From NCBI RefSeq assembly GCF_004210375.1, contig NC_134825.1, forward strand, positions 68,563,558-68,627,557: a stretch of DNA of 64,000 nt. The letters are read 5' to 3'. The translations under genes were made by a program, and so were the position numbers. Each line of letters opens with the position of its first letter. Position 1 is the first letter of the stretch. Shown here piece by piece: positions 6,448-64,000 of this stretch. The notes beneath the pieces are model-generated. The model did no database searches. It was given only the letters and a program-made list of their open reading frames with translations, and was not told where the DNA came from. The stretch is from Tachypleus tridentatus. Taxonomy: Eukaryota > Arthropoda > Merostomata > Xiphosura > Limulidae.

Positions 6448-6644
6448 TCAATCATCTGTTATCGCTGCTTTCCAGGGATGATTTTGTAGACTTGAAGGAA
6501 TATCAAAAATGGAATAGTTGTTTGGAAGTTCGGAGTCATATATAAATTCTTTTTCTGACTCGTAGATTGGACTTAAAGGTCTAGCTCCAAAAGACACCAT
6601 ATTTATGTCAGTTTTTTGTGGAGAACTGTAAACAAAACTGCCCC
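6448..6644 (-). CDS. Anosmin-like gene, exon 9 (cytoplasmic tail and stop)
   Basis: 197 bases of coding sequence. The tail contains several acidic/tyrosine patches ('PIYESEKEFIYDSE') and ends 'KAAITDD'. Acceptor gctcaccag is followed by the frame that completes the split Gly codon. Confidence 0.75.
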
Positions 6645-9600
6645 CTGGTGAGCATAAAGTTTTACAAAAAAAAGATAAGTAAATCAACGATAACATAACA
6701 AAAAAGTGAATTGTTACAATTTTAAACAAAAAAATATTGTGTTATATATGCTTGTTAATTCTATAAATACTTTTAGATGAATAGCCTGCCACGTAACCGC
6801 AATTTTGCTTGAACATTATTATAATGATTTTTTTCTTAGATTTTCTTTATATTATTTGGTAAAAAAAAGGAATGATGGAAAGTCTAATCCGCTTAGCATT
6901 ATCAAAACGATGTATTTCTTAAACGTATAACGTTATTGTTTTGAACTAAGCTACACAATGCTATGCCCAACACGGGTATCGAAACCCCATTTTTAGCGTT
7001 GTAAGTCCACAGCCATACCGCTGAGCCACTGGGGGTCAACGTATAACGTCACCAATATTCATCAATAAGAATAACTATTCACATCAACCTAGTCTAACAG
7101 AAGTTCTAGTTGATAATTTCTTCCCGCTATTTCTCCACTGAAATATAAACTAATATTCATAGCATAGCGGCCCCACATGGCCAGGTGGGTTAAGGCGTTC
7201 GACTCGTAATTTGAGAGTCGCGGTTTCGAATCCCCGTCGCACCAAACATGCTCGCCCTTTCATGCGTGGGGGCGTTACATGTTACGATCAATCCCACTAT
7301 TCATTGGTAAAAAAGTTGGCGGTGTGTGGTGATGACTATCTGCCTTCCATCTAGTCTTACACTGCTAAATTAGGGACGACTAGCGCAGATAGCCCTTGAG
7401 TAGCTTTGCGCGAAATTTGAAACAAACAAACAAAACATAGTATAGTACTGAAATAGCTAATGAACTGCAGTAGCAGAACTGACTAATTCATTCACTAATT
7501 ACTTGCTAACTGGCTTTTTTATATATGGCTCAAATTGTTTCCTGACCTTTGAAAAACGTTTTAGAAAATAAGACCACGTACATCACCTTACATCAAATTC
7601 CTTTATGGGTAAAGAAGAAATTAAATGTCTGGAAACATTTATATTAGAAATATAGCCTACAAAAATATTAAAGGTTAAAATAAGCAAAATGTTCTTAGAA
7701 CGTTCCATAATTTCTGTGGATTTTCCTTCACCGAAATATCAGTTAAATACTTCTTAACAATTATAGCCTTATGCAGCTAGCTTGACAAGCGTCTGGACGA
7801 AAGAGACTTAGAGTAACGTGATATTAAACGCGTGCATACAGTTACATTACAAGTATACATTATTGACATCTTTTATACGTTGGCCTATAGATGTTTTCAA
7901 ATAATTACGTTGTTAACGATGTAGAGCTCTAGTTATAAAGCAGTTACACGTTTTAATACATAATCCCATAACGATATATGAACGTTCAGTAACTGCACAA
8001 TACAACTAATAAACATATTTTACACTTGACTGCATTTAACACACAAAATCTGGGAAGAAAAGTACTAGTAATAGAACTAATAAAGTATACGATGGGTAAG
8101 TACGTTATCAAATTACTACCCTGCAAATAATCACGTGATTCTTCTATATTTTTTCGGAGAATAACTGGCATTCTTCGGATAGGTTGATGCTGACGCTTTT
8201 TACGATAAGTCTTTTTACATAAACAGCAAGTCATTAAAACCGCGAGCACTGAGGAAAAACACGCTGCACAGCCGGCAATTACTTCCACTCTCAAACAGCC
8301 TAAAAAAAAAGAAAGAAAGGATAATGATATTTTGTCTTATAATTAAAGACATAAAACATAAAAAAAAATTAGGATATTCTGATATTTCTGTCTTAGTTAC
8401 CTGAAGAGGTATAATTTAGTATCACCCGGCTAATATAGGGTTTATTCTAATATACGGTAGAGGTAACCTGTGTTGGCTTCGATGTGTTTGTGTTTTCTTA
8501 TAGCAATGCCAAATCGGGCTATCTGCTGAGCCCACCGAGAGGAATCGAAACCCTGATTTTAGTGTTGTAAATCTGTAGACTTACCGCTGTACTAGCGGAG
8601 GGTAACGTGTTTGATTGCAGAAATTAAAATACGTACTTAAGATTAAAAACACCAAAAATAAGACAAAAATTGTACGCATTTTGTCTTGTTCTCGCCTATG
8701 AATTTATTTCTTTTTGCAGTTACAATGAGGAGAGACTTGTCGCATTATCATGTTATTTATTTATCAAACACTATTAAAGAACCAGTTAAAGACTTTTATT
8801 CAAATATTGTATCACTCAATTCCAAGATGTCATTAGTGAAAGTTATTAGAACGTTATAATTTTGACTTGGTTTATTAATCAGTGAATTTAAACAATTGCA
8901 TAATAAAAAAAATTAAAAATACGCCTTGATTGAATGTGAATTTAAATTACTTTGATAAAACCACGTGCTAATGGTAACTAACCTAAACATTTGTGTGAAA
9001 TCGAAGTAGTAACTGGTGCAATTCCATGAGTATCCACAGTCAAATTTTCACTGAGTGGCTCATGCTCGTTAGTAGCTGTGTAGTCTTTGACCTAGATACA
9101 AGGAAACACGAATTAGCTTTAACGAAAATAAAATTAATAGCGATAGTTTTCTATTTTGTACGAGTGGTACGTGTAACAATAAAAAAAAGATATTTGTCTT
9201 ATAAAACAATGTAATCCAGTTTAACGACTGAAAGTGTTTGAGCTTGAAGTCCGAATGAGCTCAAATTATTGGTCAAAGCTTAAACTCAGATTGACAGTCA
9301 AAACTCGAATTCAGCTTGATGTTTAAAACTTCCTTTCATCTGGTAAAAAGTGTCAGAAACTTAACACAAGTCTGTCACTCCAAGGTACACGGAATATCCC
9401 AAAGATAAATCCCAAAGATAAATATTTTCATTACACCAGTTTCTATTTAAATACATGTTTGAGTCCTACCTTAGCTTCAAATTAAGTTGTTCTTGTTTAT
9501 TTCAGAAGCGATATTTTCACATATTTTATTGAAATAATAAAATAACAAAAACCAATGAAAATATAAAAAGTAAAGTCGCTGTGATGGAAAGGTAATATAT

Positions 9601-12600
9601 TTTCAACGTTGGGACGTGACACTGACCACTTATTTCTATTTCCTTTAGAATTAACTTATTTGTTTATCACAAATATGCTGAATAATTAACATAATCCTAA
9701 GTCAACATTATTCCAAATACGAAATCTTTTCTCATGCTAGAAATTACCAAATCATCTAATATACTGACCTGAACAGTATATAAAGTTTCAGGCCACAGAG
9801 TTAGTTTCACAACGTTATCGGCTGTATACAAATGCCCAGTTATTTCAATTAAACCATCGAAAACCTTCCATGTAACTTCATACTTGGTAGTCTCAGTTGG
9901 TCGAAGAGCAGGCCACGTGATTATAGCCTCAACATTGAGAAAGTTGTCATCATAACTCAGCGAGAATAAAGTTGGTCTCCATGGGATATTTTTCTCGTCT
10001 ACTACTGCTGTAGGAACATTTGACGTGGCAACTTCACTAGTCTTATCTCTAGCAGCATTCGAATCAATATTTGGGGAGTACAGAACTGTTTGTTTTCCAA
10101 AAACACCTTCTGACGTCACAGCAACGATCTTAACTTCTGAAGGACGATTCAACCAACTGGCTTTGATGTTTGTTGTTTTCTTCAAAGTCTGCTCAGGAAA
10201 CCAAGAAAAATGTTTTGAACCCTAAAACTATTACACAACATATCAAACATTGTGATGTCACATAACTAATTTCTTTGTTCAGGAGCCTATAAAAATGTTC
10301 ACAATTTCGTATATAAATAGCCAACAAGTATTATTACTTTTCAATATAACATATTTAACTACGAACACTGACATATCATAAAAGAACCAAAATTAAAGAA
10401 ATCAAACAACAGTAAACCATCAAATAAATATGTAACCTAAAGGAATAAACCTTAGAGACAAGACAGGGTTGCTAGGGTGGGGTAATTAATTGCTCATCAT
10501 CATCTTCTCCTCTATCGTGATTGATATCGTGTGAGTGGGAAAGGGGCAACTATTATTTCTGTTTGTCTTATCTCATTAAATTGTTACATATTATAATTTA
10601 TCTCGGACGATCTTCCAATTTATTATGTTACGCATTACGATTTCAAATAGCTGGAAATTTTAATTTTAATTTAGAAGTTAAGTGAATTTCAACATGTGTC
10701 AGATTTATGATATTTGCTAGCAAGATTGATACAAACAAGTTTCTCTCTTAACACAAATATATTTTAAGATACAAATAACAATACAATTTATGATAACGGT
10801 TATTAGAAACAATGATTTATATACAAAAGTATCATAAGCTTATAAACAATACTGAGTCTTCTATCTGGTCTGGATGGAACTAAATATTTTATCGGGGGTT
10901 AAAGACGAACGAAGTAATTCTGTGTTCATACACAGGCACACTTCACTTGACGGGAAGCTAGCGAGCTTCTTCACAAGTGAGCTTTTTCCATTGAAGTTAT
11001 ACGATGTCTTGGTAGAAATACCAACGTCCAAAGCTAATTCACATTTAAGTACATAAGTTACATGCATTTTTAAATACATATTAAACTGAAACAAACAAAA
11101 ATATTGAAATAAATACATAACAGTGAATCCATTACAAAGCTTGCTAAATATATATTATACTCAACTTCTTTATGTTTTTATGAATTGCGCCTACCTGGAG
11201 TTTGAGAATAAACCGAAACATCAACCACTCCTACATTCAATTAGTTGCAGTCCGTAACATTTCAAATTCAGTACAATCTAACATGTGTATTGTTTTTGTT
11301 TTTTGAACATTCGGAAACTTCACCAAGAAACCATTATCTTGTTGGTCTTTACAAAAAAATGAAATTGTTTCTTGTTTTACCTTAGCTAATGCGATAAGTT
11401 AAATATAGATTAGTTCATAATATAGAACAATTTTTAGTAAGAACCAAGTTAACTCCGCTATAACAAAAATGCACGGTGGCTCAATGACAAACCTGAAGGG
11501 TTATAATAATAAAATCAGGTTTCGATGTTCGCAATGAATACAAAATAGATAACCCACTATAGCCCACAAATTAATAAAATAAATTTTAATCTTAAATCCA
11601 GGAGAAAATATCGATTTACGTACAAGAAATGCACATATGTGTGCATATGTAACTATAAAGATTATATATATATATACCTGCGTTACTTCTTCCCAGAGTT
11701 CGTCGTTTTTTGTCAGATTCCTTTTCACCAAGACAACATACACGATGCATTCTGGATTACTTCGCCTCCTGGAAACTGGAGCAGACCAAGTGAATTTGAT
11801 AGATTTATTTTTAGTTTCGAATTCAAGTCGAAGAGGACTAAGAGATGATCGTGTTCGAGATGAATTTGCGATGAAGTTACCTATCGAGCCAAAATAAATA
11901 CACTTGTAATGAAGGGCTCAATACGAAGAGTGTTTACACTTTTAGTCATATAATAAAAAACAAAACAACTCAAGACTTTGTTTTAGATTGTTAATAAATG
12001 GAACTATAACAGTGATTTTAAACAATAAAATATCTATATCAAAATTAGATTAAGTAATATACATCAGATTTTTAATCTTCGTGGTTCATTAGTATTGAGC
12101 AACCGAGTCACGAAATTTTAAAAATAATTTAATATTAACAAAAGTTTCAACTTTGAAAGATGTCTCTGTAAACAATAAAGTGTACTCTTATTATCTTTTA
12201 AGGACTTATGTTATTGACCATTTAATTTTTTGTGCTGAACAATTCTCCCACTAAATATTTTGAGATGAGTAAATGAGCGTGTTTTCTTAGAACAAAGTCA
12301 CAACGGGTAATCTGCTGAGCCCATCGACGAGAATCGAACCCTTCATTTAAGCTGGGGACGTGAGTAAATGATGAATGGACCCTATTTTTAATGACTGTTA
12401 TTATTTGTTTCGTTTTTTGTAGTTAATACTTCCTACGCAAAATTATGACGTAAACATTAAACAGCGATTATGGTGTAACTTTCGATCACGAAGCCTAAAA
12501 CTGAGAGTAATTACAAACAAAAACTAAGCGTTTTGGAATACTTACGTCTATGTCCCTCAAGGTAAAATTCACAAGCTTTGTCACATCCCAGAAACTGAAA

Positions 12601-15600
12601 AAGAAAAGGAAATGTACTAAATATGTTTATAAAGAACATCTATACAACAATCCTCAATTTATATATGTAACTTTACTTTACTTTTTAATTTCTTCTTGGA
12701 TTCCTGAAAAACGTCTTGAAATTTTAAAGTATGTTTCTAACCTCCCAAAGGATGTTATTTAAAAAAAAATTCGAAGGAGTAGCAATGAACACCAAAAATA
12801 TGATCAAGAGAGTTTTACTGCTTGTCTATCTGTGTTCCCTGGTGTGTAAACAGTACGACGTTACAATGCTAAAATATGGGATTCGATTTCCCACAGTTGA
12901 CAAAAAAAGATGCTTTTATGGCCACGAATAAACAATCCACTATGCTAACAACTACGTCACGCTAAACCCAAATTTGATTGAGCCGATTTACTCAAAAAAT
13001 TTGTATTAGTATAGTGCCGTTGATAACAATAAAGCAAATTTAATATTTGGAGATTTTCGAACTGGGTTCACTATACGTCTATTGTTTTCACAAGGTTTGC
13101 CTTGTGGACTTATATAATAATTGCCGTGTGTATGTAAATAGATATACGACACAATAATATATTTTGTATTTTTAAAACGTCGCCTGACTCATAATCTGAG
13201 GGTTGCAGATTCGAAACCCCGTCGCACCGAACATGTTCGCCCTTTCAGTCGTGAGGACGTTATAATGTGATGGTCAATCCCACTATTCGTAGGTAAAAGA
13301 GTAGCCCAAGTGTTGGCGGTGGGTGGTGATGACTAGCTGCCTTCCCTTTAGTCTTAAACTGCTTTGTTTTGTTTGTTTTTGAATTTCGCACAAAGCTACT
13401 CGAGGGCTATCTGTGCTAGCCGTCCCTAATTTAGCAGTGTAAGACTAGAGGGAAGGCAGCTAGTCATCACCATCCACCGCCAACTGTTGGGCTACTCTTT
13501 TACCAACGAATAGTGGGATTGACCGTCACATTATAACGCCCTCACGGCTAAAAGGACGAGCATGTTTAGTGCGACTGGGATTTGAACCCGCGACCCTCAG
13601 ATTACGAATCAAACGCCTTAACCCACCTGGCCATGCCGGGCCTCTTACAGTGCTAAATTAGGGACGGCTAACTCAGATAGCTCTCGTGTACCTATGCGCG
13701 AAATTTAAAAAACAAAACAAAAAATAAAATGTCGCCTTCTATATAGGAACAAGATGATTTTGGGAACTCTTAGTATTGGTTAGTTGGATGTGCATAAAAA
13801 ATAATAAGAATCTTGTAAATGTGCAAAATTTTTATCTTTGTTTCCCTTGAATTTTCGGGGCAATTTACTAGTTTTAAGACGAAAATTCATCATTCACTCT
13901 AGAATCTATTAAATGTTTTATGCCTCTTGATATATTTCTTTGTCATGTTATTAGCTTATCTGACAAAATCTTACGTAAATAAAAAACCAGCAGATCCCCT
14001 TTCTAAAGATGGTGTCATTTTAAAAAGCTTGATCTTAAACATGCAGTAAAAAAAGTAAACCGAGCTATTCAAATAATTTATAACGCACTATTATATAAAA
14101 AATGATAACATTAATATAATCATAAAGATAATAAGGTAAAAGTTTTATTTTATGAAAATTAAATACGAACGAAAAATTTTGAAACTAACACTATGAGGAA
14201 ATAATTTTAAGTTGTTTTTTTCGAATGTTTGTGTAATTTTTAATGTCATTTTTAATTTGACTAAAAAAGACGTTGCTATGTCTTCCAACAATAACGTTCA
14301 CTATCATTACATTCTTTTACACGTAAGTACGTTGCTATTGACTGAGTGTTAAAACGACTGCTCTTCCAAATTTATAAGAGCAATGTTCTTCCTAACTGAT
14401 TGTTTATCTGTCTATTTGTCAAACTAATCTTATAAGGTTGATATCACACGTATAAAACAACTTCATTCTTTCTCTGAAACTACAGTCTGTAAAAATAAAC
14501 TAAAATTCAGCCCGCTGTTTCTCTTGACTTTTCAGAGAAGGAATGAATTTAAATAATGAGATATATTCTATAAACTTTGAAAATGGACATAAAGGATACA
14601 CGTAAGTATTTTGTATAGAAGGTTGAAAAGTTACTTACGCAAATATCTGAGACGCCACACATTGTTCCCCAAACACCAAAATTTCTGTGCAGCAGTTCGC
14701 AAGTTTCCCAGCACTAAAAAAAGAAATAAAAAAAATGCAACATTGTATTAGTTTGTATAATTAGAACCAGTCCTCATATACAGTTATAGCTTCTCACGAG
14801 TGTTCGGGTTAAAGACATTTTCAGAGTGAAAAGATGTTACAAGATTCTGAAAGTAAAAACAATATATATTTAATTTTGTTTATGGTTAAAAACAAAGTCC
14901 AAAAGTTCTTAAAAGTGCAATTAAATAATGCTCATGGAAATTCAAAGACAAAGTTATTTTTTTGCGAATGAAATTATACTAATTTTATTATTGGGTCTGG
15001 CATGACATGATGGTAAAGATGCTCGTCTCGCAACTTGGAAAGCGAGGATTTGAATGCCCACCACCGGACATGAACGCCCTTTTGGAGGTTTTATAAAGTG
15101 ACGATTAATCTCACTAGTTGTAGGTAGAACAATGGTCCAAAGGTTACCTGTGGGTGGTGTTGATTAACTATCTTCCTTGTAGTCTAAGCCTGAAATTACC
15201 AAGTGGTTCGAAGCAAGACTCGCAACTTGAGGGTCGCGGCTTTGAATTTCCGTCACACAAATCACACTCGCCCTTTCAGCCATGGAAACGTTATAATGTA
15301 ACGATAATTCCCACTATGCGTTGATAAAACAGTAGTCCAAGAGTTGGTGGTGGGTAATGATGATTATTAGCAGCCTATCCTCTAGTCTTACACTGCTAAA
15401 TTAGAGAGGCAGATAGCCCTCGTGTAGCCTGGCGCGAAATTTAGAAAAAAGCATCTATAATTTGTCAATAAAATAATTTTTTTGTTTTGCAGTAAGCACA
15501 AAGCTACACAATGGTCTATCTGTGCTCTGCCCACCACGGGTATCGAAACCCGGATTTTAGCGTGTAAGTCCGCAGACATACCGCTGAGCCACTGGGGGGC

Positions 15601-18600
15601 ATAAAATAATCACATATTTATTCACATGTGACTTATTCCTTTAATGAGTAGATATTCTTCTGTATTTCTATATTCATCCACTCACGATAAATATTGAAAT
15701 ATACAAAAATATTATTGTTAATAGCAAATAAATTACAAGAGGTTATCTATTAATAAAAACTTATAAACATAAAAGTAATGAAAATCGTGTTTTGTTTTGT
15801 TTTTGGAAAACCAGCGATTTGAACAATATTTAACAAGCTGGGTATTTAAATCTTAGAACTAAAACTTATTAATATGATGAGGTTTGTCAGCTCCAAATCG
15901 TCGACTATTTTGATCCTCATCCAAAAATAATCGTTTTATATTTTTATCGTAAGTTAAACACTTTCAAGAAATATTATACACATACCATCCATAAATGTAC
16001 AGTACAGTGATGAAATATTTTATATCACAAATTATCAGGTCATTCCATAAGTGATATCCGAAAATTTAATACAGAAAGTGTATCGTCATTTCTGTCTTTG
16101 TAGAAGGCTTTAATGACTAAAATATGTAGTAGGACATGTATGAAAATGTTTAGACAAATGAAAGAAACTAACCCAACTCCACTTGTTCAGATCATTAATC
16201 AAATAAACCCTTATGACGATGGATGTGTCTGAGGAGCACATTAGGCATATAATGCTTTATGAGTTTAAAAAAGGCAATAGTGCAATAGAAACTACATAAA
16301 ACATTCAAGGTGTTTATGGTGTGGAGTCTCTCAATGAAAGAAGATGTCTAAGATGGTTTCAGAAGTTCAGATCAGATGACTACAGCTTAAGTGATGTGCC
16401 ACGTTCAGGTCGTCCTGTTGACTCTAATGATGACTTGCTGCTGGCTGCACTTGATGAAGACTGTGCTGTAACAATTGAAAAACAGCACAGAAACTTAATT
16501 CAACCCATTCAACAGTTCACCGTCATCTGTAACAGCTTGGAAAGGTGTCAAAACTTGGAAAATGGATTCCCCATGATTTGACAAAAGCCAACCTTAGAGC
16601 GGAAGTAGACATTTGCACTTCTCTACACTCTCGTGAATGTAACTCATCTTCTATGGACAGATTAGTGACTGGAGATGAAAAATGGACATATATTAAAAAT
16701 GTTAAGCTCCGCAGACAATGGCTCAGTACAGGTAAACTAGCTAAAGCACAGCCTAAAATGGACCACCACCCTAGGAAAGTCTTGTTAAGCATTTGGTGGA
16801 TATTGTTGGCATGATCAACTTTGAGTTGCTGCCATTCAATGTAACGATTACATCAGACTTCTATTGTGGACAGTTAGAGTGCTTGAATGTTGCACTGAAA
16901 GAAAAGAGGCCTGCTTTGATCAATCGTGAAAGGTGTTGTGTTACACCAGGACAATGCACGACCCCATACAGCAAGGATCACACCTGTAGAGATTGAAGAG
17001 CTAGACTGGGAAAACTTCCACATCCTCCTTATTATCCAGACCTTGCTCTATCTGATTATCATCTATTCCGAAGTGTGAAGAACTATCTTGATGGGAAAGA
17101 GCTTGGAACACATGAAGATGTCAAAACTACCCTCTCTACATTATTTTCTTCCAAACCCCAGGAATTTCATAGAAGTGACATTCAGAAGCTTGTGAATCGT
17201 TGGCAGGAAGTAATTAATAATAATGGAGCATACATTATTGATTGAATAAGATAAAAAGCGTCGGAAATCCTTTCGATTTTTCTGAACCTAAAATCGGACA
17301 TTACTTAAGAGATGACTTGATATATTGCTAAAAAATGTTCATGTGTAATTTTTTAATACTAGTCTTAATCTAAGACAAATTCATACTACTTTTAAAATTC
17401 TATATAAAATAAACTACACTTTTTATAATCTTACTACGATTTGAGCGTCATCCAACTACAGTTAAACATTGTTAACGGTTTTTGTTTTTCTGTTACATGA
17501 TCTCTTCGACAATCTATTGAAATTACACGTTCTTAGTACTTTGTTATAATATGCACGACGTTCTCTAGGACGTAAGCCTTGCTAGAGCTTCTTTCCCTTG
17601 GTTTATACGTCGTCCAAAATACATAAAAAACATTCTCGACACATTTCAGTCACGATCTATATGTACTACTTAAACCTTGCTTTGTACATCCTAAAACGGT
17701 TAAGCCTTATTAAAATTTCTTGTCCAGGATATGTGCTGCATCCAATAACGATTAAACTTCAATAAATATTTCTTGTCCGGGATCTGTGCGACATCCTAGA
17801 ATGATTAAATCTTGTTAATTTTCGTCCAGGATTTGTACGGCATCCCAAACGGTTAAACCTTGTTAACACTTCTCTCCCACGAATTTTTCGGAATTAAAAA
17901 GAATGGAAAGATAATACGATCTCGCCAATTTATCTTTTAAACTTACTACAGCACCTTATAGTAAATACAAATATACTTTATTATTTTTAATTTCAATCCC
18001 AAAACATATTCTATCGATAACTGAATTTGACGAGAAACAAAATTTTTAGTACCAAAGTAGAAAATCTCAATAAAGTGCACTTTATGGCCAAATAAAAACT
18101 GAAAGTTCTGGTTAGATCAATTTTCAGGCCCGGCATAGCCAGGTGGTTAGGGCGCTCGACCGGCAATCTGAGAGTCACAGGTTCGAATCCTCCTAACACC
18201 AAACATGCTCGACTTTACAACCGTGGATGCGTTATAGTGTTACAGTCGATCCCACTATTTGTTGTTAAAAGAATAGGCCAAGAGTCAACAGTGGATGGTG
18301 ATGATTATCTGCCTTCTTTCTAGTCTTACACTGCTAAATTAGAGACGGCTAGCGCAGAAAGCTATCGTGTAGCTTTGCGTGAAATTCAAGACATACAAAT
18401 ACATCAGTTCTCCTTAATTCAATCTAGTTGAGAATATTTTAAAGCAGTTAACGTGTAGAAATAGCTACGTATACTATTACGTGGAGAAATCAAAGTGGTA
18501 TAACATTTATAGATATGCTGTCAGTATATACATCATGTTATTTCTTCTATATGTTTCCTGATAACAGATACAGTTTGGTCTGTAATATAATTTTCTTGAG

Positions 18601-20254
18601 TGTATTATTTAGTGCTAGAAGTGATTTACTAAATGACGAAAAAATAATTTAAAATGAGTACAGCGTATTTGATGAATTAAAATTTTTTACAAGTTATGTG
18701 TAGTCCAAAATGTGCGCACCAACAACTGACTTAGCGATTTCGGAACATCGCGAAAAACAAAGAACAACATTGGAATATTTCTCTGTGCAAACTATGCCTT
18801 CACTGTACAAAATGTGCAATGGTTGCAAAGTTGCATCTTCGTACTTCGTTAGTTCTTCAGTGTTTTATGTAAAAAATGTAAAACTGGATGTCTCTTGTAG
18901 TGTTTTTTTTGCAATAATTATTTTTACTTACACTACATAACTACAAGTATAACCGTTTAATCAGGCGAAAGTGTAAGTATAGTTTGATATATAAATCTTC
19001 ATTTTAAATGGTTAGGATTGTTCCATCAATCTAGAGGCCTGATGATTAGGGACGCTCGACTTGCCATCTGCGGGTTCGAATCGTCTTTTCAGCCGTGGAT
19101 GTATTCTACTGTGGCGGTGGGTAGCGTTACTTTCCTTCTCGTCTATTCCTGCTCGTTTAGAGACGGTTAGAGCAGAGAGCCATCGTGAAGCTTTACGCGA
19201 ATTTCAAAACAAAACAATCAATCTGATACATAGAAAAATGACACTTAATCTGAAGAAAAACGTGTACTTACCATGTTGCAGTCTGGTGTTCCGCGGCATG
19301 ATTGTATGAGTCTGGTGTCGTTTTCAAACTAAGTAGACAGATGAAGAATAAGTAAGCTAATAAAGTGACACACGAAAAAAATTATTGTTAACAAGACTGA
19401 TTTTTTTTTTTTCAATTTAGCTAAATATTAATCCATAGTTGACATAAGTTACGACATAAATTTCATCTGTTGAATGTGTTTGCTACTGAAATCTGTGCTA
19501 ATTTTACTTTTTCCTGATGATCAAGTTTCTGGTGTTGGGACTATTAAACAAGTTTGTTAAAATTAAAACAAATGCAACCCTAAAGTGTTACCTGTAGGGT
19601 TTTTTTATTTCTTAACTTCGGTAATGGCTACTGATATTGATGTTGCATCATATGATTTTTAGCATAGCATGTTATTAGAATGAGCTCGTGTTAAAATTCT
19701 CAATAATAAAGTTAAGATTAGTTAAGCAACGTGAAAACAAATCAAATCAAAACAATGGAATGGTAAGAAATTTTTCAGAAAATTTACAAATGTTTGCTGA
19801 CGGTTGTTGTTTCAACATATCTATCCTTTCTAATAATAAACTAAACAATAAAGAAGTTCAAAGGGATTATCTTATTTTTTTAAGATTTAGATTAAACGAT
19901 TGCAATACATTTGAATCGTTCTATAAAACAATCATCAGACAGCTAATAGGTTTAAAAGTTTTAAAGTTAAAATATTTTGGTTTTTGTTTCCGTTTTCTTT
20001 ATTGCTGAAAGTTCCCAAACTAAACAATCTCACGAGTCTTAGATTCAGTAAATATATTTTTCTCAGTTTATTTTGTTGCCCGTGTACCAGAATCATTCGT
20101 TGGATAGACATCTTACCTGTTCAAGACAGTTTGCTCGACACTGAGCCGTCTTTATCTGTGTCTTGAGTTGGACCAACTTCGAAGTAGAAGGGTTTATTAC
20201 AATATATAGACTAAGCCAGATTACTGAGTAAAATGCACCAGGTAGTCGGAACAT
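6448..20254 (-). CDS. Anosmin-like Cys-box / fibronectin III single-pass membrane protein, 9 exons, complete
   Basis: CDS exons in transcript order: 20254-20117, 19328-19272, 14713-14639, 12594-12546, 11880-11678, 10188-9748, 9091-8983, 8299-8120, 6644-6448; total 1449 nt, 482 residues plus stop. All introns are GT/AG and all phases join without a stop. Residues 1-25 form a signal peptide ('MFRLPGAFYSVIWLSLYIVI'). Residues 39-98 hold ten cysteines spaced C-x3-C-x13-C-x5-C-x2-C-x3-C-x13-C-x5-C-x3-C-x3-C. This resembles my memory of the anosmin-1 Cys box, including the C-x5-C-x2-C-x3-C core and the final CxxxCEF. Two FN3-like domains follow (about 120-215 and 235-340), then a membrane helix (about 364-385), a basic stop-transfer (KKTYRKKR) and a tail of about 95 residues. 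There are several N-x-S/T sites in the predicted ectodomain. No WAP domain lies between Cys box and FN3. Function inferred: cell-surface adhesion or signalling. Family assignment is moderate; the gene model is strong. Confidence 0.82.
6945..7036 (-). repeat. SINE family B fragment (minus)
   Basis: 'AGCTACACAATG', 'ACGGGTATCGAAACCCC', 'GCGTTGTAAGTCCACAG' and 'CATACCGCTGAGCCACTGGG'; the tail is missing. Lies in the last intron of the anosmin-like gene. Confidence 0.75.
7169..7434 (+). repeat. tRNA-derived SINE, family A (plus), near complete
   Basis: Head with pol III A-box-like 'TGGCCAGGTGGGTTAAGGCG' and B-box-like 'GGTTTCGAATCCCC', then a conserved body ('CAATCCCACTATTC', 'GATGACTATCTGCCTTCC', 'TAAATTAGGGACGACTAGCG', 'GTAGCTTTGCGCGAAATTTG') and an (AAAC)n tail. 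This is the abundant family of the window. Confidence 0.88.
8120..8299 (-). CDS. Anosmin-like gene, exon 8 (membrane helix)
   Basis: 180 bases. Encodes a cysteine-rich hydrophobic helix (VIAGCAACFSSVLAVLMTCC) followed by LCKKTYRKKR, which predicts an intracellular C terminus. Acceptor ttttttttag, donor AGG|gtagta. Confidence 0.82.
8489..8601 (-). repeat. tRNA-derived SINE, family C (minus)
   Basis: Inverted copy: 'GTGTTTTCTTATAGCAATGC', 'GGGCTATCTGCTGAGCCCAC', 'GGAATCGAAACCCTGATTTT', 'CTTACCGCTGTACTAGCGGA'. This family shares the tRNA-like head with family B but has a different 3' region. Lies in intron 7 of the anosmin-like gene. Confidence 0.78.
8983..9091 (-). CDS. Anosmin-like gene, exon 7 (juxtamembrane stalk)
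   Basis: 109 bases; phase 0 in, phase 1 out. Encodes a Ser/Thr-rich stalk beginning VKDYTATNEHEPLSENLT and ending SHKCL. Acceptor ttgtatctag, donor TAG|gttagt. It bridges exons 6 and 8 in frame; skipping it would break the frame. Confidence 0.72.
9748..10188 (-). CDS. Anosmin-like gene, exon 6 (end of FN3-1, linker, FN3-2)
   Basis: 441 bases, phase 0 at both ends. The start completes FN3-1 ('VKIVAVTSEGVFGKQTVLY'). A roughly 30-residue linker precedes FN3-2, seen by 'AIITWPALRP', 'KYEVTWKVFDG', 'LTLWPETLYTVQVS'. Acceptor ctgagcag, donor TTG|gtaatt. Confidence 0.85.
11678..11880 (-). CDS. Anosmin-like gene, exon 5 (first FN3, N-terminal half)
   Basis: 203 bases; phase 1 in, phase 0 out. Contains FN3 strand motifs 'IKFTWSAP' and 'CIVYVVLVKR', ending 'WEEVTQ'. 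The acceptor (ggctcgatag) has a weak pyrimidine tract but its phase exactly completes the Arg codon begun in exon 4. Confidence 0.75.
12274..12362 (-). repeat. SINE family C fragment (minus)
   Basis: 'GTGTTTTCTTAGAACAAAG', 'AATCTGCTGAGCCCATCGAC' and 'GAGAATCGAACCCTTCATTT', then it degenerates. Lies in an intron of the anosmin-like gene. Confidence 0.65.
12546..12594 (-). CDS. Anosmin-like gene, exon 4 (residues 91-106 plus one base)
   Basis: 49-base exon with a strong acceptor (tctttttcag) and donor (gtaagt). It encodes 'FLGCDKACEFYLEGHR', the last Cys-box pair, and ends in phase 1. Confidence 0.78.
13171..13720 (+). repeat. SINE family A (plus), split by an inserted minus-strand copy
   Basis: The 5' part (about 13171-13362) reads from a headless tRNA-like region through 'TTTAGTCTTAAACTGCT'. 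The 3' part resumes near 13643 at 'CTTACAGTGCTAAATTAGGG' and ends in an (AAAC)-type tail. The gap is an inverted SINE of the same family. An imperfect duplication of about 11 bases (CTTAAACTGCT / CTTACAGTGCT) flanks it. Confidence 0.8.
13363..13642 (-). repeat. SINE family A (minus), nested in another SINE A
   Basis: Complete inverted copy from tail 'GTTTTGTTTGTTTTTGAATT' through 'GGCAGCTAGTCATCACCA' to head 'TTAACCCACCTGGCCATGCC'. It interrupts the plus-strand SINE, so it is the younger insertion. Confidence 0.85.
14639..14713 (-). CDS. Anosmin-like gene, exon 3 (residues 66-90)
   Basis: 75-base exon, phase 0 at both ends. Acceptor ctttttttag, donor TGC|gtaagt. It begins CWETC and ends with a cysteine, supplying four Cys-box residues. 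Confidence 0.8.
14993..15452 (+). repeat. Two partial SINE A copies in tandem (plus)
   Basis: The first (about 14993-15205) has a degenerate head 'GGTCTGGCATGACATGATGG' and body. The second (about 15206-15452) starts inside the head at 'CAAGTGGTTCGAAGC', with a B box 'GGCTTTGAATTTCC' and the usual body ending 'GCGCGAAATTTAG'. Both are diverged. Confidence 0.7.
15484..15600 (-). repeat. SINE family B (minus)
   Basis: 'TTTTGCAGTAAGCACAAAGC', 'CTACACAATGGTCTATCTGT', 'CCACCACGGGTATCGAAACC', 'CAGACATACCGCTGAGCCAC', ending GGGGGGC. It is among the best-preserved family B copies. Confidence 0.82.
16035..17320 (+). mobile_element. Mariner element, full length, inactive
   Basis: 1286 bp between TA dinucleotides (16033-34 and 17321-22). 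Terminal inverted repeats of about 27 bases pair TCAGGTCATTCCATAAGTGA... at the left with TCAAGTCATCTCTTAAGTAA... read from the right end; both continue to TCCGA. The length and TA target match known mariners. It sits in intron 2 of the anosmin-like gene, in the opposite orientation to that gene. Confidence 0.92.
16219..17245 (+). pseudogene. Mariner transposase, dead
   Basis: ATG at 16219 opens a mariner N-terminal helix-turn-helix ('HIRHIMLYEFKKG', then 'LRWFQKFRSDD', 'PRSGRPV'). The frame is interrupted by TAA shortly after 'AIETT' (about 16297) and by frameshifts near 16480-16560. Later frames carry the catalytic D,D34D signature: 'VTGDEKW' (about 16665-16685), 'LHQDNARPH' (about 16942-16968) and 'LSDYHLF' (about 17048-17070). 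The C terminus is 'GAYIID' with stop TGA at 17243-17245. All three catalytic aspartates are still visible across frames, so loss of activity comes from stops and shifts. Confidence 0.88.
18127..18398 (+). repeat. SINE family A (plus)
   Basis: Head 'GGCCCGGCATAGCCAGGTGG', B box 'GGTTCGAATCC', and the standard body to 'GCTTTGCGTGAAATTC'. It is one of the clearest tRNA-like heads in the window. Lies in intron 2 of the anosmin-like gene. Confidence 0.86.
19033..19222 (+). repeat. SINE family A (plus), internally deleted
   Basis: Head 'GAGGCCTGATGATTAGGGAC' and 'GCGGGTTCGAATCGTC', then a shortened body ('TTTTCAGCCGTGGATG', 'AGAGACGGTTAGAGCAGAGA', 'GCTTTACGCGAATTTC') and an AAAC tail. It ends 50 bases before exon 2 of the anosmin-like gene. 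Confidence 0.75.
19272..19328 (-). CDS. Anosmin-like gene, exon 2 (residues 47-65)
   Basis: 57-base exon, phase 0 at both ends. Acceptor tacttag, donor ATG|gtaagt. Encodes an NDT glycosylation site and the motif SCRGTPDCNM. Confidence 0.75.
20117..20254 (-). CDS. Anosmin-like gene, coding exon 1 (residues 1-46)
   Basis: ATG at 20254 starts a typical signal peptide, followed by the first cysteine pair (QCRANC). Donor CAG|gtaaga. An in-frame upstream ATG at 20314 would bury the signal peptide behind 20 polar residues, so I prefer 20254. Confidence 0.75.
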
Positions 20255-44600: not shown

Positions 44601-47600
44601 ATTTTGACAAACTACACTTTGTTTTCAAACAACTTAAATTGAATGAATTTTTAATAAATATCAAGGTAATAAATCTTAACAGGTTAACTAAAGCTGTTTT
44701 ACCATTCTATACATGGCAAAGAAAGATTTAACATATTATCTGAAGCTATTCTGCTATTCCATACTTGATAAAACAAATGCTAACATTTTCTTACATTAAA
44801 AATGTATTTCCAATAACTAACACCTTCCCCCACACAAAGTTATTTCATTCTTCTTCCTGCTCCGAAGTATTGCTAAAATATTTTAGCACCAGTTTTTATA
44901 CCCCATAAATTTTGGAGGGAACCCAGCTTGGCCACATTCTCACTGAATGGATAAATATAGGGTTGTATTGTAAGGTAAGTTTCAACTTCACATTCAAGAG
45001 GAAGCCTCCTTGGACCACCATCCCAATGGTTGGGAATTGGTAGGTGGTAACAACTTCCATGCTATACTTGGAGAAGACAAAGAGGGAAAGATGAGTAAAT
45101 GCAGTGAGGAATTCAGAAGAGCATCACACTGGAAAAAGTGATATAAGTGTCCACAATTTCCAGATTTATGCAGTCAAACGATCAGTAGGGATGGGCAGAA
45201 ATCTCCTTTCGCTTTACTCATGATAGTTCATGAGTGACAGTCTCAAGTTAACCTTGCCAACTCTTAGAGACAAATGTATATATCACTAGGCATGTCACTC
45301 GTGGTCTTGTGGAACACCCCATCTATAAAATAACCATTATAGCTCTACCAGTATATTGTGTGGGTTTGAGTAAAAGCACACCTGACCAGGTAACATCCAC
45401 CACAGAGTGAGTTCCCATCAGAAGCAGTAAACAAAAACATAAATGTTGTAGACAGACGTACCAAAGACAAGGGCAAATGGAGAAGTGTAAAATCTCCACA
45501 GCAGAGATGACATCCACCTGATAAAGATACACCCAAATAGTGCAGATTATAATGAGCGACAAAGGAATAGGGAGTGGTCTACATATGGCCAAAATAGTTT
45601 CTTCCAATGAATGTTGAAGACAAGCAGTCAAAGACATATGTCAAATCTGATGAGAAGATACATTGAGGAGATTACAACCTTCCATGGATCAATCTAATTA
45701 TGCCAGGCTAAGAAATTGATGAACCAAACCAGGTAGTCTGACAGAAAATAGATCAAAGGAAGCAGAAAGTTTACAGGGAATAAGAAGTTGAAAATGTGAA
45801 CCTCAAAAGGAGGCAGTTGTGCCATATTACACCTTAACATGCAAACCTGGCAAAGAAGCCAATCAGAATTGGAATGGGAGTAGAGGTGGAAGATGGAAAG
45901 TAAAAAAGTGGGTGTGAAAGCAAAATGGCCTTCTTAGACAACAGAGGTCATAAGCAGAAAGGACCAGTCTGGGTATAGAAGAATATAAGAATGTTATAGC
46001 ATTCTAGTAACACTAATACAAAAATATCTAATCAACAACATCTGCAATCTAGGAGAGAAAACAAACTTGTACCATATACACGATTAACTAGCTGTAAAAC
46101 AAAGGTGTAGAAGGTGAGATACCCTGAAGAGGCACAGAGTGTGATGAATAAAAACAAAAAAAGTGCAGGAAAAGAGTGAATCCAATTTTCTTCACCTTGA
46201 TTGTATTCATCCCGATACATTTTTAGGTTGAGAAGAAGAATACAGCATCAGCTTAATTAATCCTGGAATCTAGCTCCCTGTGAATTAAGGCCTGTACCTC
46301 CCCTCAGAAGATAATGTCAAACCCAATGCCTAAGTAGTTGAACCAAAGGTGTTGTCTACCATAACAGAAACTTCCATTGTTGATACAGAGAAACAAGTAA
46401 TTCTAAGTTACTGTATAATTCAGTAACAATAAACGAATGCAACAAAAAAATTTGAAACAAATTTAAGCAAACAAAGTAATAGAAAACTGTTGAAAAAAGG
46501 ATTGAAATGTCAATGGAGCACAATCATTACAGCAGTCACATAAGAAAATATACATCCAAATGATGTGCCAATTTAGAAAGTGATGATTGCGTACAAAAAT
46601 CAGAGAGCTATCTGTGTGAATATAGGTGACAATACTATTTGTGGAGGGTGATCAAAAGAGGTGCAAAATTTTAGAATTTACAGACTAGTGTATTAAGCAC
46701 TATAATTTTTTAGCAATACACCCATGTGCAAATTAATTGAAACAAGATGGAAAATTACGATTTTTTTCAATTTTTTGCATTTTATTTCTGAGAATCCAAA
46801 ATTTACTTACAAATTAATACATGATATGACTGCCTTTATTTTTCAGAAGATCATTAATCCACTTTGGCATCAAGTCCACGACTTGACTGCTATCTTTACT
46901 AATTTTTGGATCGCGCTACCACACCTCAATTAGCTTATCTTTCATAGTACAGTCTTTTCCCCAAAATCTTTCTTTACAAATCGCCCAAAGATTTTCAATA
47001 GGATTTAAATCCGGAGGGTTTCCAGGCCAGTTCAGCACCTTTATTTGCGTTGTAGTCATACAATTCTTCACAAGTTTCGATGTGTGGCACAGAGCCAGAT
47101 CTTGCTGAAAAATGCCAGATCCATCTGGAAATCTCTTTTTCAATTCTGGAATGACTCTGGAACGACATGTAAGCCTCCGACGCCACAGTAGTTGAAAAAG
47201 CCCCAAAACATCTTCTTCAAGGGATGTTTTACGAACTGATTGATGTGAGATTCTCCAAGTTTCTCACCTGGAGATCTGCAAACATGCAGACTTCTTTGAC
47301 CCTGTATGAAGAAATGAGTCTTGTCACTGAATAACACCTTCCTCCTCAAAATTTCGTCATATCTCCCAAAAATAGATCGACCGTACTACAAAACACAGCT
47401 AATGATGCCATCGGTGTGAAAAAATGACTATTAAAGGAAATCAGCAGGTCCAGTGAGCCTACACCGACCACCATGCTGAAAATATTGTAAAATGACCATT
47501 TGTTTCAATTAATTTGCACAAGGGTGTAGTTAGGGGGCAGAAAAAAGACAACTATATGTGAGAGTAGGTATGACTATCAGAACTTAACATATTATCTGGA

Positions 47601-56465: not shown

Positions 56466-57890
56466 TACACTGCTGGCCAAAGTCTGAAGACCAATGAACA
56501 TAAAGAAAAAATATGCATTTTGCAATGTTAGACTCAACCACTTATTTGACCAGATCTTCGATAAATGAAATAAGAAAAGGGAAAATAAAAATGAAAAACT
56601 TTTTAGCATTTAATATGGAAAATGTAAACACTATGAAATTAGCCTAAATACTAGCTGGTCAAAAGTTTAAGACCATGCCAAAAAGAAGTTCTAAATAGGG
56701 TAGGAAATGCCCATCAAGAGGTCTCAGTAGTGAGTTACAAAGCCATCATTGCGAATAACCTCAAACATTCGCTTTGGCATGATCGATATAAGCGTTTGTA
56801 GAAGGCTGGCTGGAATGTTATTCCAAATGATGAAGATGGCTTCACGAAGATCATGCACTGTTTGGAATTGACGTCCATTCATAGACTTCCCTTGGCACCC
56901 ATCCCCAAATATTTTCAATGTGGTTCAGTTCGAACGAACACACTGGATGGTCCAAAAGAATCACGTTATTCGCCATAAAAAGTCTTTTATCCTGCGGGCA
57001 TTGTGGATTGCAGCATTGTCCTGCTGAAAGATCCAGTCATTTCCACACAAGCGAGGGCCTTCAGTCAATAAGGATGCTCTCTCCAACATGCCAATGTAGT
57101 CAGCTGCTGTTTGACGCCCCTGTATAACCTGAAGCTCCATTATTCCATGGAAGGAGAAAGCACCCCAGATGATGATGGAACCTCTTTCACTGTATCGTCT
57201 AGAAAATGTCTCCGATGCGATATCCTTATTGTACCAGTAACGTTTGAATCCATCTGGACCATCCAGGTTAAATTGTTTCTCATTAGAGAACAAACCCTTC
57301 GTCCTCTTTTCTACGTCCCATGTTTGGTGCTTCTCAGCAAAGTTTAACCGAGCTGTTTCGTGGTGTGGAAGGAGGTGTGGCCTTTGAAGACGTTTACGAT
57401 TTTTAAAGCCTTTCTCTCATATATGCCGTCTTATTGTTTTTGAGCTGCATTCTGCGTCCGTAAGGGCCTTAATCTCGTTCAACGATCGATTGGTGTCTTG
57501 CCGGACAACCCGTCGAATCCTCCTGCTCAACGCCGACGAAATTTTCATGGGCCGACCACTTGAAATTCTCGTTCCGTATTCCTCAGGGTCTTTTAAGAAA
57601 TTTGCAACAGCAGTTTTACTACGCCCAATCTCACCAGCAATAGCACGCTGAGAGAGACCTTGCTTTTGCAGTTCAACAATTCTTCCACGTTCAAACTCTG
57701 TCAACTTTTTAAATTTTTGCCATGTTTTTACCCAATGCTAGTGAGAGATGTTGAAAATGCTAATGCTTGAACACAAATGGCTAAATTTCGTTTCGTGTTT
57801 ACCGATTAACGCTTCGTTTCAGTATGGTCTTAAACTTTTGACCAGCTAATATTTAGGCTAACTTCATAGTGTTTACATTTTACATTATGA
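56466..57890 (-). mobile_element. Tc1-like element, nearly full length, inactive
   Basis: Left end begins TACACTGCTGGCCAAAGTCT; an internal inverted block ('TTAGCCTAAATACTAGCTGG', 'TCAAAAGTTTAAGACCAT') at 56618-56680 matches its complement at 57822-57882. The outermost right repeat appears truncated. Length of about 1.4 kb fits the family. It lies between two different Penelope-like fragments. Confidence 0.88.
56724..57723 (-). pseudogene. Tc1-like transposase, dead
   Basis: About 330 codons on the minus strand. The ATG at 57723 is followed within five codons by a stop caused by one extra A in an A run. Then come the paired helix-turn-helix domains ('LQKQGLSQRAIAGEIGRSKT', 'GRPMKISSALSRRIRR'), an in-frame TGA after 'TIRRHI' (57417-57419), and 'FSNEKQFNLDGPDG', where the first catalytic Asp is Asn. 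'WIFQQDNAAIHNARR' keeps the second Asp. A frameshift near 56960 precedes 'ELNHIENIWGW' with the catalytic Glu and the C terminus ending 'FVTHY'. Several independent lesions. Confidence 0.9.
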
Positions 57891-63312: not shown

Positions 63313-63538
63313 GGGAGTTATGTTTGTTTACGCGGCTCTCGCTCTCTCTGGTACTCGGTCTCACACTGGAACACACACTCAGTTTGGATTAATAAAAGGA
63401 AATCAAAATCAGCGACTCGTTTTCAAACAAGAACACCAACGCACAAGACAAGAGTCAGATATCACCCACCAAAACATAAACTGGTCATACTACACATAGG
63501 GTTGATTATGCAACACTACCTAGCAGAAGAGGCAGTGA

Positions 63539-64000
63539 GTAGATGGTCCTACAAACACATGTGGTGCAAGTGAGGAGGACAGTGGTGATCCTGATGGTGA
63601 GAATGCGGACACGACTAGTACGGTACCCCAGCCGCAAGAGGGCACCACTCACACCCAGGGTGAAAAATTATCACCAGGACCCAAGGACCTGAGCTAGCTT
63701 CCAGACTTGAAGAGATACCCGGCCACAGAATACAGCAGCCATTCAAGGTCATTCAACAAGAATTGGTGTGATCAGCACTCGTGGTTAGAGTACTCTGTGA
63801 CCCAAGATGCTGCATTCTGCTTCGCATGTCGTCTTTTCAGTCACACACACTTCAGTAAAACTGTGAAGACCTTCACCCATGAAGGCTTCCGGAACTGGAA
63901 GAAGGCGACCACATCACTGAAGTCCCATGATAATTCTGCAGGACACAAGTTTGCCATGCAAGCTTGGTCAGAGTTTAAATTGCAGAAAACAAAGGGTGCA
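63539..64000 (+). pseudogene. hAT transposase N-terminal region with TTF-type zinc finger, partial
   Basis: Open frame from 63539: an acidic leader ('SEEDSGDPDGENADTTSTVP'), then 'PGPKDLS', an in-frame TAG at 63695-63697, 'LPDLKRYPATEYSSHSRSFN' and 'WCDQHSWLEYSVTQDAAFCF', 'ACRLFSHTHFSKTVKTFTHE', 'GFRNWKKATTSLKSHDNSAG', 'HKFAMQAW'. The 'DAAFCFACRLF...GFRNWKKA...L..H..S..H' order is the TTF-type zinc finger of ZMYM1-like hAT transposases. No start codon is visible in frame. The stop suggests an inactive copy unless an intron removes it. The catalytic region lies beyond the window. Confidence 0.8.

Follow-up and report, generated by a model that had tools for sequence, protein, structure and literature searches.

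A three-gene family of membrane-anchored, WAP-less proteins in the horseshoe crab Tachypleus tridentatus, with likely kinship to anosmin-1

Anosmin-1 (ANOS1 in human, KAL-1 in Caenorhabditis elegans and Kal-1 in Drosophila) is the closest described system to the gene reported here. The FN3 units of anosmin bind heparan sulphate, and its cysteine region and WAP domain tune binding to heparan sulphate and to the fibroblast growth factor (FGF) receptor (PMC3580776, PMC1629024). The human protein is secreted, the worm protein has a predicted glycosylphosphatidylinositol (GPI) site, and Drosophila Kal-1 has only two FN3 units; the fly and worm anosmins retain the WAP domain (PMC3580776). The cysteine region of Drosophila Kal-1 retains four of the eight cysteines counted by its authors in the human protein (PMC1629024), and the WAP domain is dispensable for part of anosmin function in worm and fly (PMC3580776, PMC1629024). 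A stretch of 64,000 nucleotides from the horseshoe crab Tachypleus tridentatus (contig NC_134825.1, positions 68,563,558 to 68,627,557; hereafter the window) was analyzed, and a gene on its minus strand, from 20254 to 6448, was found to be one of three related genes in the same genome. These are likely, though not proven, to be distant relatives of anosmin-1/KAL-1, forming a family of WAP-less type I membrane proteins that are anchored by a helix rather than secreted. As in anosmin, the predicted protein begins with a signal peptide and a cysteine-rich box of partly equal spacing, followed by FN3-like units, two in number as in Drosophila Kal-1. It differs in the missing WAP domain, in its single membrane helix and short tail, and in the strong divergence of its FN3 units.

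The gene consists of nine exons that can be joined in phase, with GT-AG borders at every intron. Exon 1 (20117..20254) contains the start codon, the signal peptide and cysteines 1 and 2 (CxxxC), and is followed by exon 2 (19272..19328, phase 0-0) with cysteines 3 and 4 (C-x5-C), exon 3 (14639..14713, phase 0-0) with cysteines 5 to 8 (CWETC ... C-x5-C) and exon 4 (12546..12594, phase 0-1) with cysteines 9 and 10 (C-x3-CEF). The first half of the first FN3-like unit (FN3-1) is encoded by exon 5 (11678..11880, phase 1-0), and its end, a linker and most of the second unit (FN3-2) by exon 6 (9769..10188 after the correction described below, phase 0-0). Exon 7 (8983..9091, phase 0-1) completes FN3-2 and adds a stalk, exon 8 (8120..8299, phase 1-1) encodes the membrane helix, as judged by hydropathy, and a basic juxtamembrane stretch, and exon 9 (6448..6644) encodes the cytoplasmic tail and the stop codon. 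The 12 most hydrophobic 19-residue stretches of the protein all fall in exon 8, with a peak hydropathy of 2.18. The ten cysteines lie at residues 39, 43, 57, 63, 66, 70, 84, 90, 94 and 98, and the translated exons do contain the spacing C-x5-C-x2-C-x3-C and the closing CxxxCEF that an earlier note on this DNA had compared with anosmin-1. The joined exons have a GC content of 0.40, compared with 0.33 for the introns, and only a terminal stop in the reading frame as compared to 28 and 39 stops in the other two frames, although the splice sites had been picked to keep the frame open.

The 2.17-Gb assembly (205 contigs) was searched with the window gene model, which identified two further loci, C10:75681645-75692718 (lowest E value 6.0e-41) and C6:46060992-46069034 (lowest E value 1.4e-38), each matched over five exons in the same order. 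Local tblastn on the DNA fetched from these regions placed eight of the nine exons in the C10 copy and all nine in the C6 copy. Exon 1 has a counterpart in both, exon 2 was matched at E 0.23 in C6 and found by scan only in C10, exon 3 is strongly conserved, and the membrane-helix exon is present in all three copies. The tail exon is poorly conserved, being alignable in C6 and in part in C10, and its acceptors in both paralogues are uncertain; for exon 5 of C6, the 3' end was set by hand at a GC donor. The exon finder required the phases of the window gene in the paralogues, and equal phases are therefore a consistency check rather than an independent result. Protein identity among the three copies is 42–48% (48% between window and C10, 42% between window and C6), the predicted lengths are 475, 476 and 471 residues, and between copies the proportion of synonymous differences (pS 0.58–0.71) exceeds that of nonsynonymous differences (pN 0.32–0.35). 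The charge that the gene is an artefact of exon picking by eye could draw on the splice sites having been chosen to stay open and on the exon 6 site, which appears to have been wrong. It is refuted by two paralogues with the same exon order and by the synonymous excess, and we give it practically no credence. The gene is real, and the nine in-phase exons read in the earlier note were borne out apart from one boundary. An architecture of Cys box, two FN3-like units and membrane helix with no WAP domain recurs in all three paralogues, which makes it a property of the family rather than a slip of the gene model. A further weak match of the gene model on C2 (E 0.27) had no convincing additional exon within 50 kb. 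Horseshoe crab genomes, which are of the size of this assembly, were duplicated. In the scan-chosen exon 2 of C10 (L034) the third cysteine of the box is absent, with SHNETPDC in place of SCRGTPDC, leaving an odd number of cysteines.

The boundary in need of correction was the start of exon 6. In both paralogues this exon starts at the site that matches window position 10188, with the acceptor CCTGAGCAG followed by ACTTTG. A longer exon 6, starting at 10221, is also in phase and adds 11 residues (GSKHFSWFPEQ) that are missing from exon 6 of either paralogue. The extension (10189..10221) is therefore most likely intronic, with a possible use as an alternative acceptor, and the predicted protein has 475 residues, compared with 482 in the earlier note and 486 in the first model of the present analysis.

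Exon 4 splices in phase from the Cys box directly to FN3-1, as had been read from the sequence. Intron 4 (11881..12545, 665 bp) is the place at which a WAP exon would be expected, and neither a three-frame reading nor a scan of the window for the WAP pattern found one there. The full pattern is absent from all six frames of the window, in which a single partial core match lies at 63515 beside a stop. Intron 4 of both paralogues likewise reads as non-coding with no WAP exon, and the DNA fetched around the paralogues (30 kb for C10, 40 kb for C6) has no WAP core on the strand of the gene, within the limit that the scan would miss a WAP domain divided over two exons. Since no WAP exon was found near any of the three copies, the absence of the domain is very probably a feature of the whole family.

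Pairwise comparisons with human anosmin were performed to assess the likeness of the window protein, using an exon 6 boundary taken solely from the paralogues. Local and glocal scores were compared to shuffles, and a second z score was obtained with the cysteines held in place. The Cys box and FN3-1 of the window protein aligned to human anosmin minus its WAP domain with a local z of 8.19 (none of the 2000 shuffles as good), or 3.88 with cysteines fixed (2/2000); the corresponding glocal values were 6.67 and 3.43. With the human WAP domain kept, the local z was 5.73 (2.89 with cysteines fixed). Before the correction of exon 6 the local z had been 6.08 (2.71 with cysteines fixed). In the case of the paralogues, likeness to human anosmin minus WAP was lower, at 5.49 (2.46) for the C6 copy and 2.89 (1.12) for the C10 copy. 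FN3-1 of the window matched human FN3-1 (z 5.08, 2/2000) and not human FN3-2 (z -0.36), and FN3-1 of C10 also preferred human FN3-1 (local z 3.74) over human FN3-2. By local score, FN3-2 of the window, C10 and C6 copies leans toward human FN3-4, the last of the human units (z 3.00, 2.35 and 3.57), with no other human FN3 above 2.31. Five of the nine cysteine spacings equal those of human anosmin, a number matched by 2680 of 200000 gap permutations and by 25 of 200000 random placements.

The distribution of domains over exons is also consistent with that of the human gene. In the ANOS1 literature, human exon 3 contains c.262-269 and c.313 (Cys105), exon 4 contains c.488 (Cys163 of the WAP domain) and exon 5 contains c.571 and c.714; exon 4, which encodes the WAP domain, ends in phase 1 at c.541 before intron 4, and exons 5 and 6 encode the first FN3 (PMC4644526, PMC6988261, PMC12154317). 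The window gene likewise has cysteines 5 to 8 on exon 3, an exon 4 that ends in phase 1 before the FN3 region, and FN3-1 on exons 5 and 6. Extracellular modules commonly have phase-1 borders, and the match in exon plan is therefore modest support. Human junctions at c.255/256 and c.318/319, which the literature search did not show, would match the phase-0 junctions of the window gene before CWETC and at the eighth cysteine.

The kinship with anosmin put forward in the earlier note is thus favored by the corrected pairwise alignment and by the exon plan. Several results weigh against it. With the HMMER filters on, none of the three proteins matched Pfam Cys_box (PF17869) at E <= 10; this model scores human anosmin at 144.6 bits. 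The likeness of the box is one of pairwise comparison only. Searches of the PDB by sequence and by profile did not list anosmin at E <= 10 (E <= 1 in one search; one of the searches at E <= 10 used the uncorrected exon 6). Against a profile built from the three copies, human anosmin minus WAP scored -2.9 bits, a value equaled by 862 of 1000 shuffles and by 730 of 1000 shuffles that kept the cysteines, and it ranked 1593 of the 1871 rows listed (2002 sequences given), behind most shuffles. The paralogues are also uneven: the C10 copy aligns better when the WAP domain is kept (local z 6.29, cysteines fixed 3.31) and has nine cysteines instead of ten, and FN3-1 of C6 does not resemble human FN3-1 (local z 0.03). 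By glocal score, window FN3-2 is about as near to human FN3-3 (z 2.42) as to FN3-4 (z 2.28). Profile searches did not confirm the FN3 assignment. Pfam fn3 picked up FN3-2 alone, at 17–19 bits; with all three copies searched, FN3-2 scored 18.8 bits (window) and 16.2 bits in two of them, below the cut-off of 25, with no match in the C6 copy; FN3-1 had no fn3 match in any copy, the only hit being an unrelated family at E 0.075. By formal membership the family is not anosmin: Cys_box does not match, the WAP domain is absent, and the helix of exon 8 in all three copies departs from the helix-free secretion of anosmin.

These results leave considerable room for a second explanation, which we hold to be a serious contender without preferring it, namely that the three genes encode membrane receptors of an unrelated family, which has a cysteine-rich N-terminus of independent origin and FN3-like units that are divergent. 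Resemblance to anosmin would then reflect convergence on CxxxC-stapled helices and the common FN3 module. Such a family would explain the lack of any profile-level match to Cys_box or anosmin, the drop in z from 8.2 to 3.9 once the cysteines are held, and the agreement of no more than five of nine spacings; in addition, anosmin had been singled out in the earlier note as the best look-alike, which carries a look-elsewhere cost. What it does not readily account for is a likeness that is co-linear through the Cys box and FN3-1 of the window protein and specific to human FN3-1 over FN3-2, that rose after exon 6 had been corrected on independent grounds, and that extends to the way in which cysteines are shared out over exons 3 and 4, the same as in human to the extent that the human exons could be verified.

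The genome was also searched for another anosmin. A human anosmin query extending from Cys box to FN3-2 found five places at E <= 0.01 (31 candidates scored), every one of which matched the WAP part of the query, with no match to the Cys box or FN3, and a search with the Cys_box family gave nothing above cut-off. None of the WAP-bearing places was recognized as an anosmin. One, on C12 (L003), had no convincing Cys box or FN3 in the surrounding 70 kb and was judged to be an unrelated WAP protein. The cluster on C9 was read by eye as multi-WAP or single-WAP proteins and was set aside; at G000:C9:158181501-158214854 (L001, L002, L004, L005), one reading has two WAP domains followed by a thyroglobulin-like stretch. 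A weak PF17869 match on C13 (L045, E 0.037) contained internal stops and nothing recognizable. At C10:23654895-23654984 (L049:1492-1575) a weak Cys_box-like stretch (E 5.1) reads RCVSRCIS, resembling the start of the human Cys box, with a tblastn E of 0.008 when a single 3-kb locus was searched; it may be the remnant of a further anosmin-like gene or a coincidence. These searches were six-frame, exon by exon and insensitive, and the human query also misses the window family; they cannot show absence, and a normal anosmin may therefore have been missed.

One special case of the favored explanation is that the three genes are the lineage's only anosmin, an orthologue that lost the WAP domain, gained a helix and was then copied twice. 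The finding of WAP places alone with the human query, the lack of a Cys_box match above cut-off and the WAP place whose 70 kb of surroundings were checked all point in this direction, and the insensitivity of the searches, the weak stretch at C10:23654895 and the retention of WAP in fly and worm point away from it; on balance it is unlikely. Slightly less likely again is the full form of the claim, in which the gene for anosmin turned into one for a membrane-anchored receptor through loss of WAP and the middle FN3s and gain of helix and tail, was tripled, and left no secreted WAP anosmin behind. If true, a diffusible guidance cue would have been turned into a cell-bound one. The earlier suggestion of a paralogue whose WAP exon had been lost is possible, but no WAP-containing anosmin that could be its partner was recognized by these insensitive searches.

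Two other systems were compared. UMODL1/olfactorin, the function of which has been compared with that of anosmin, shares FN3 and a transmembrane domain with the window family. It differs in having WAP, EGF, SEA and ZP domains, with no Cys box among its listed domains; its overlap with anosmin consists of WAP and FN3, and WAP is what the window family lacks. Another candidate is a receptor tyrosine kinase of the Torso type in truncated or decoy form, with a CxxxCLE start, FN3 units and a membrane helix. Torso has a CxxxC start, FN3-like units and a membrane helix, and Drosophila Torso begins with a similar CxxxCLE motif; no result obtained here supports the idea. The cysteine pattern is different, there is no HRD, DFG or glycine-loop motif in the six frames of the window, and the tail stops in exon 9, which is alignable in C6 and partly in C10. 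A PDB search with a Torso ectodomain returned no Torso entry and a literature search on Torso found nothing, and we consider a Torso-type origin very improbable. Among the papers listed by the literature searches, titles and abstract openings showed no WAP-less anosmin, and none of the papers searched united anosmin with horseshoe crabs or with a Cys box and a transmembrane segment; in these searches, no earlier description of a three-gene family with this architecture was found.

By analogy with anosmin, the disulphide-stapled Cys box and the two FN3-like units would face outward and bind a partner, which in the case of anosmin is heparan sulphate and FGF receptor complexes. The membrane helix would keep this binding activity on the producing cell, where it may act on that cell or by contact. 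The tail is short and poorly conserved, and anchoring is therefore likelier than signaling through the tail. The protein probably serves as a tethered co-receptor or adhesion protein and would act in nerve or epithelial morphogenesis, a function that is inferred only. If the kinship is true, the family is a natural test of what the WAP domain and secretion of anosmin serve, both having been dispensed with in three copies under constraint. The three sequences can be used to find the family in other arthropods.

Other elements were observed in the window. Within intron 2, at 16200-17240 on the plus strand and antisense to the gene, a decayed mariner-like transposase was read by eye. A short tRNA-like repeat, present in several copies that share a tail, was also noted by eye (for example at 7160-7430, 13190-13700 and 18130-18400); ARAGORN calls no tRNA. 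On the minus strand, 56961-57737 and 46916-47263 contain pieces of a Tc1/Tc3-type transposase with helix-turn-helix (HTH) and DDE_3 matches, some below cut-off. An open frame at 63698-64000 on the plus strand leaves the window and matches zf-C17orf113 at 23.8 bits (cut-off 29.5); it is perhaps part of a hAT-like element.

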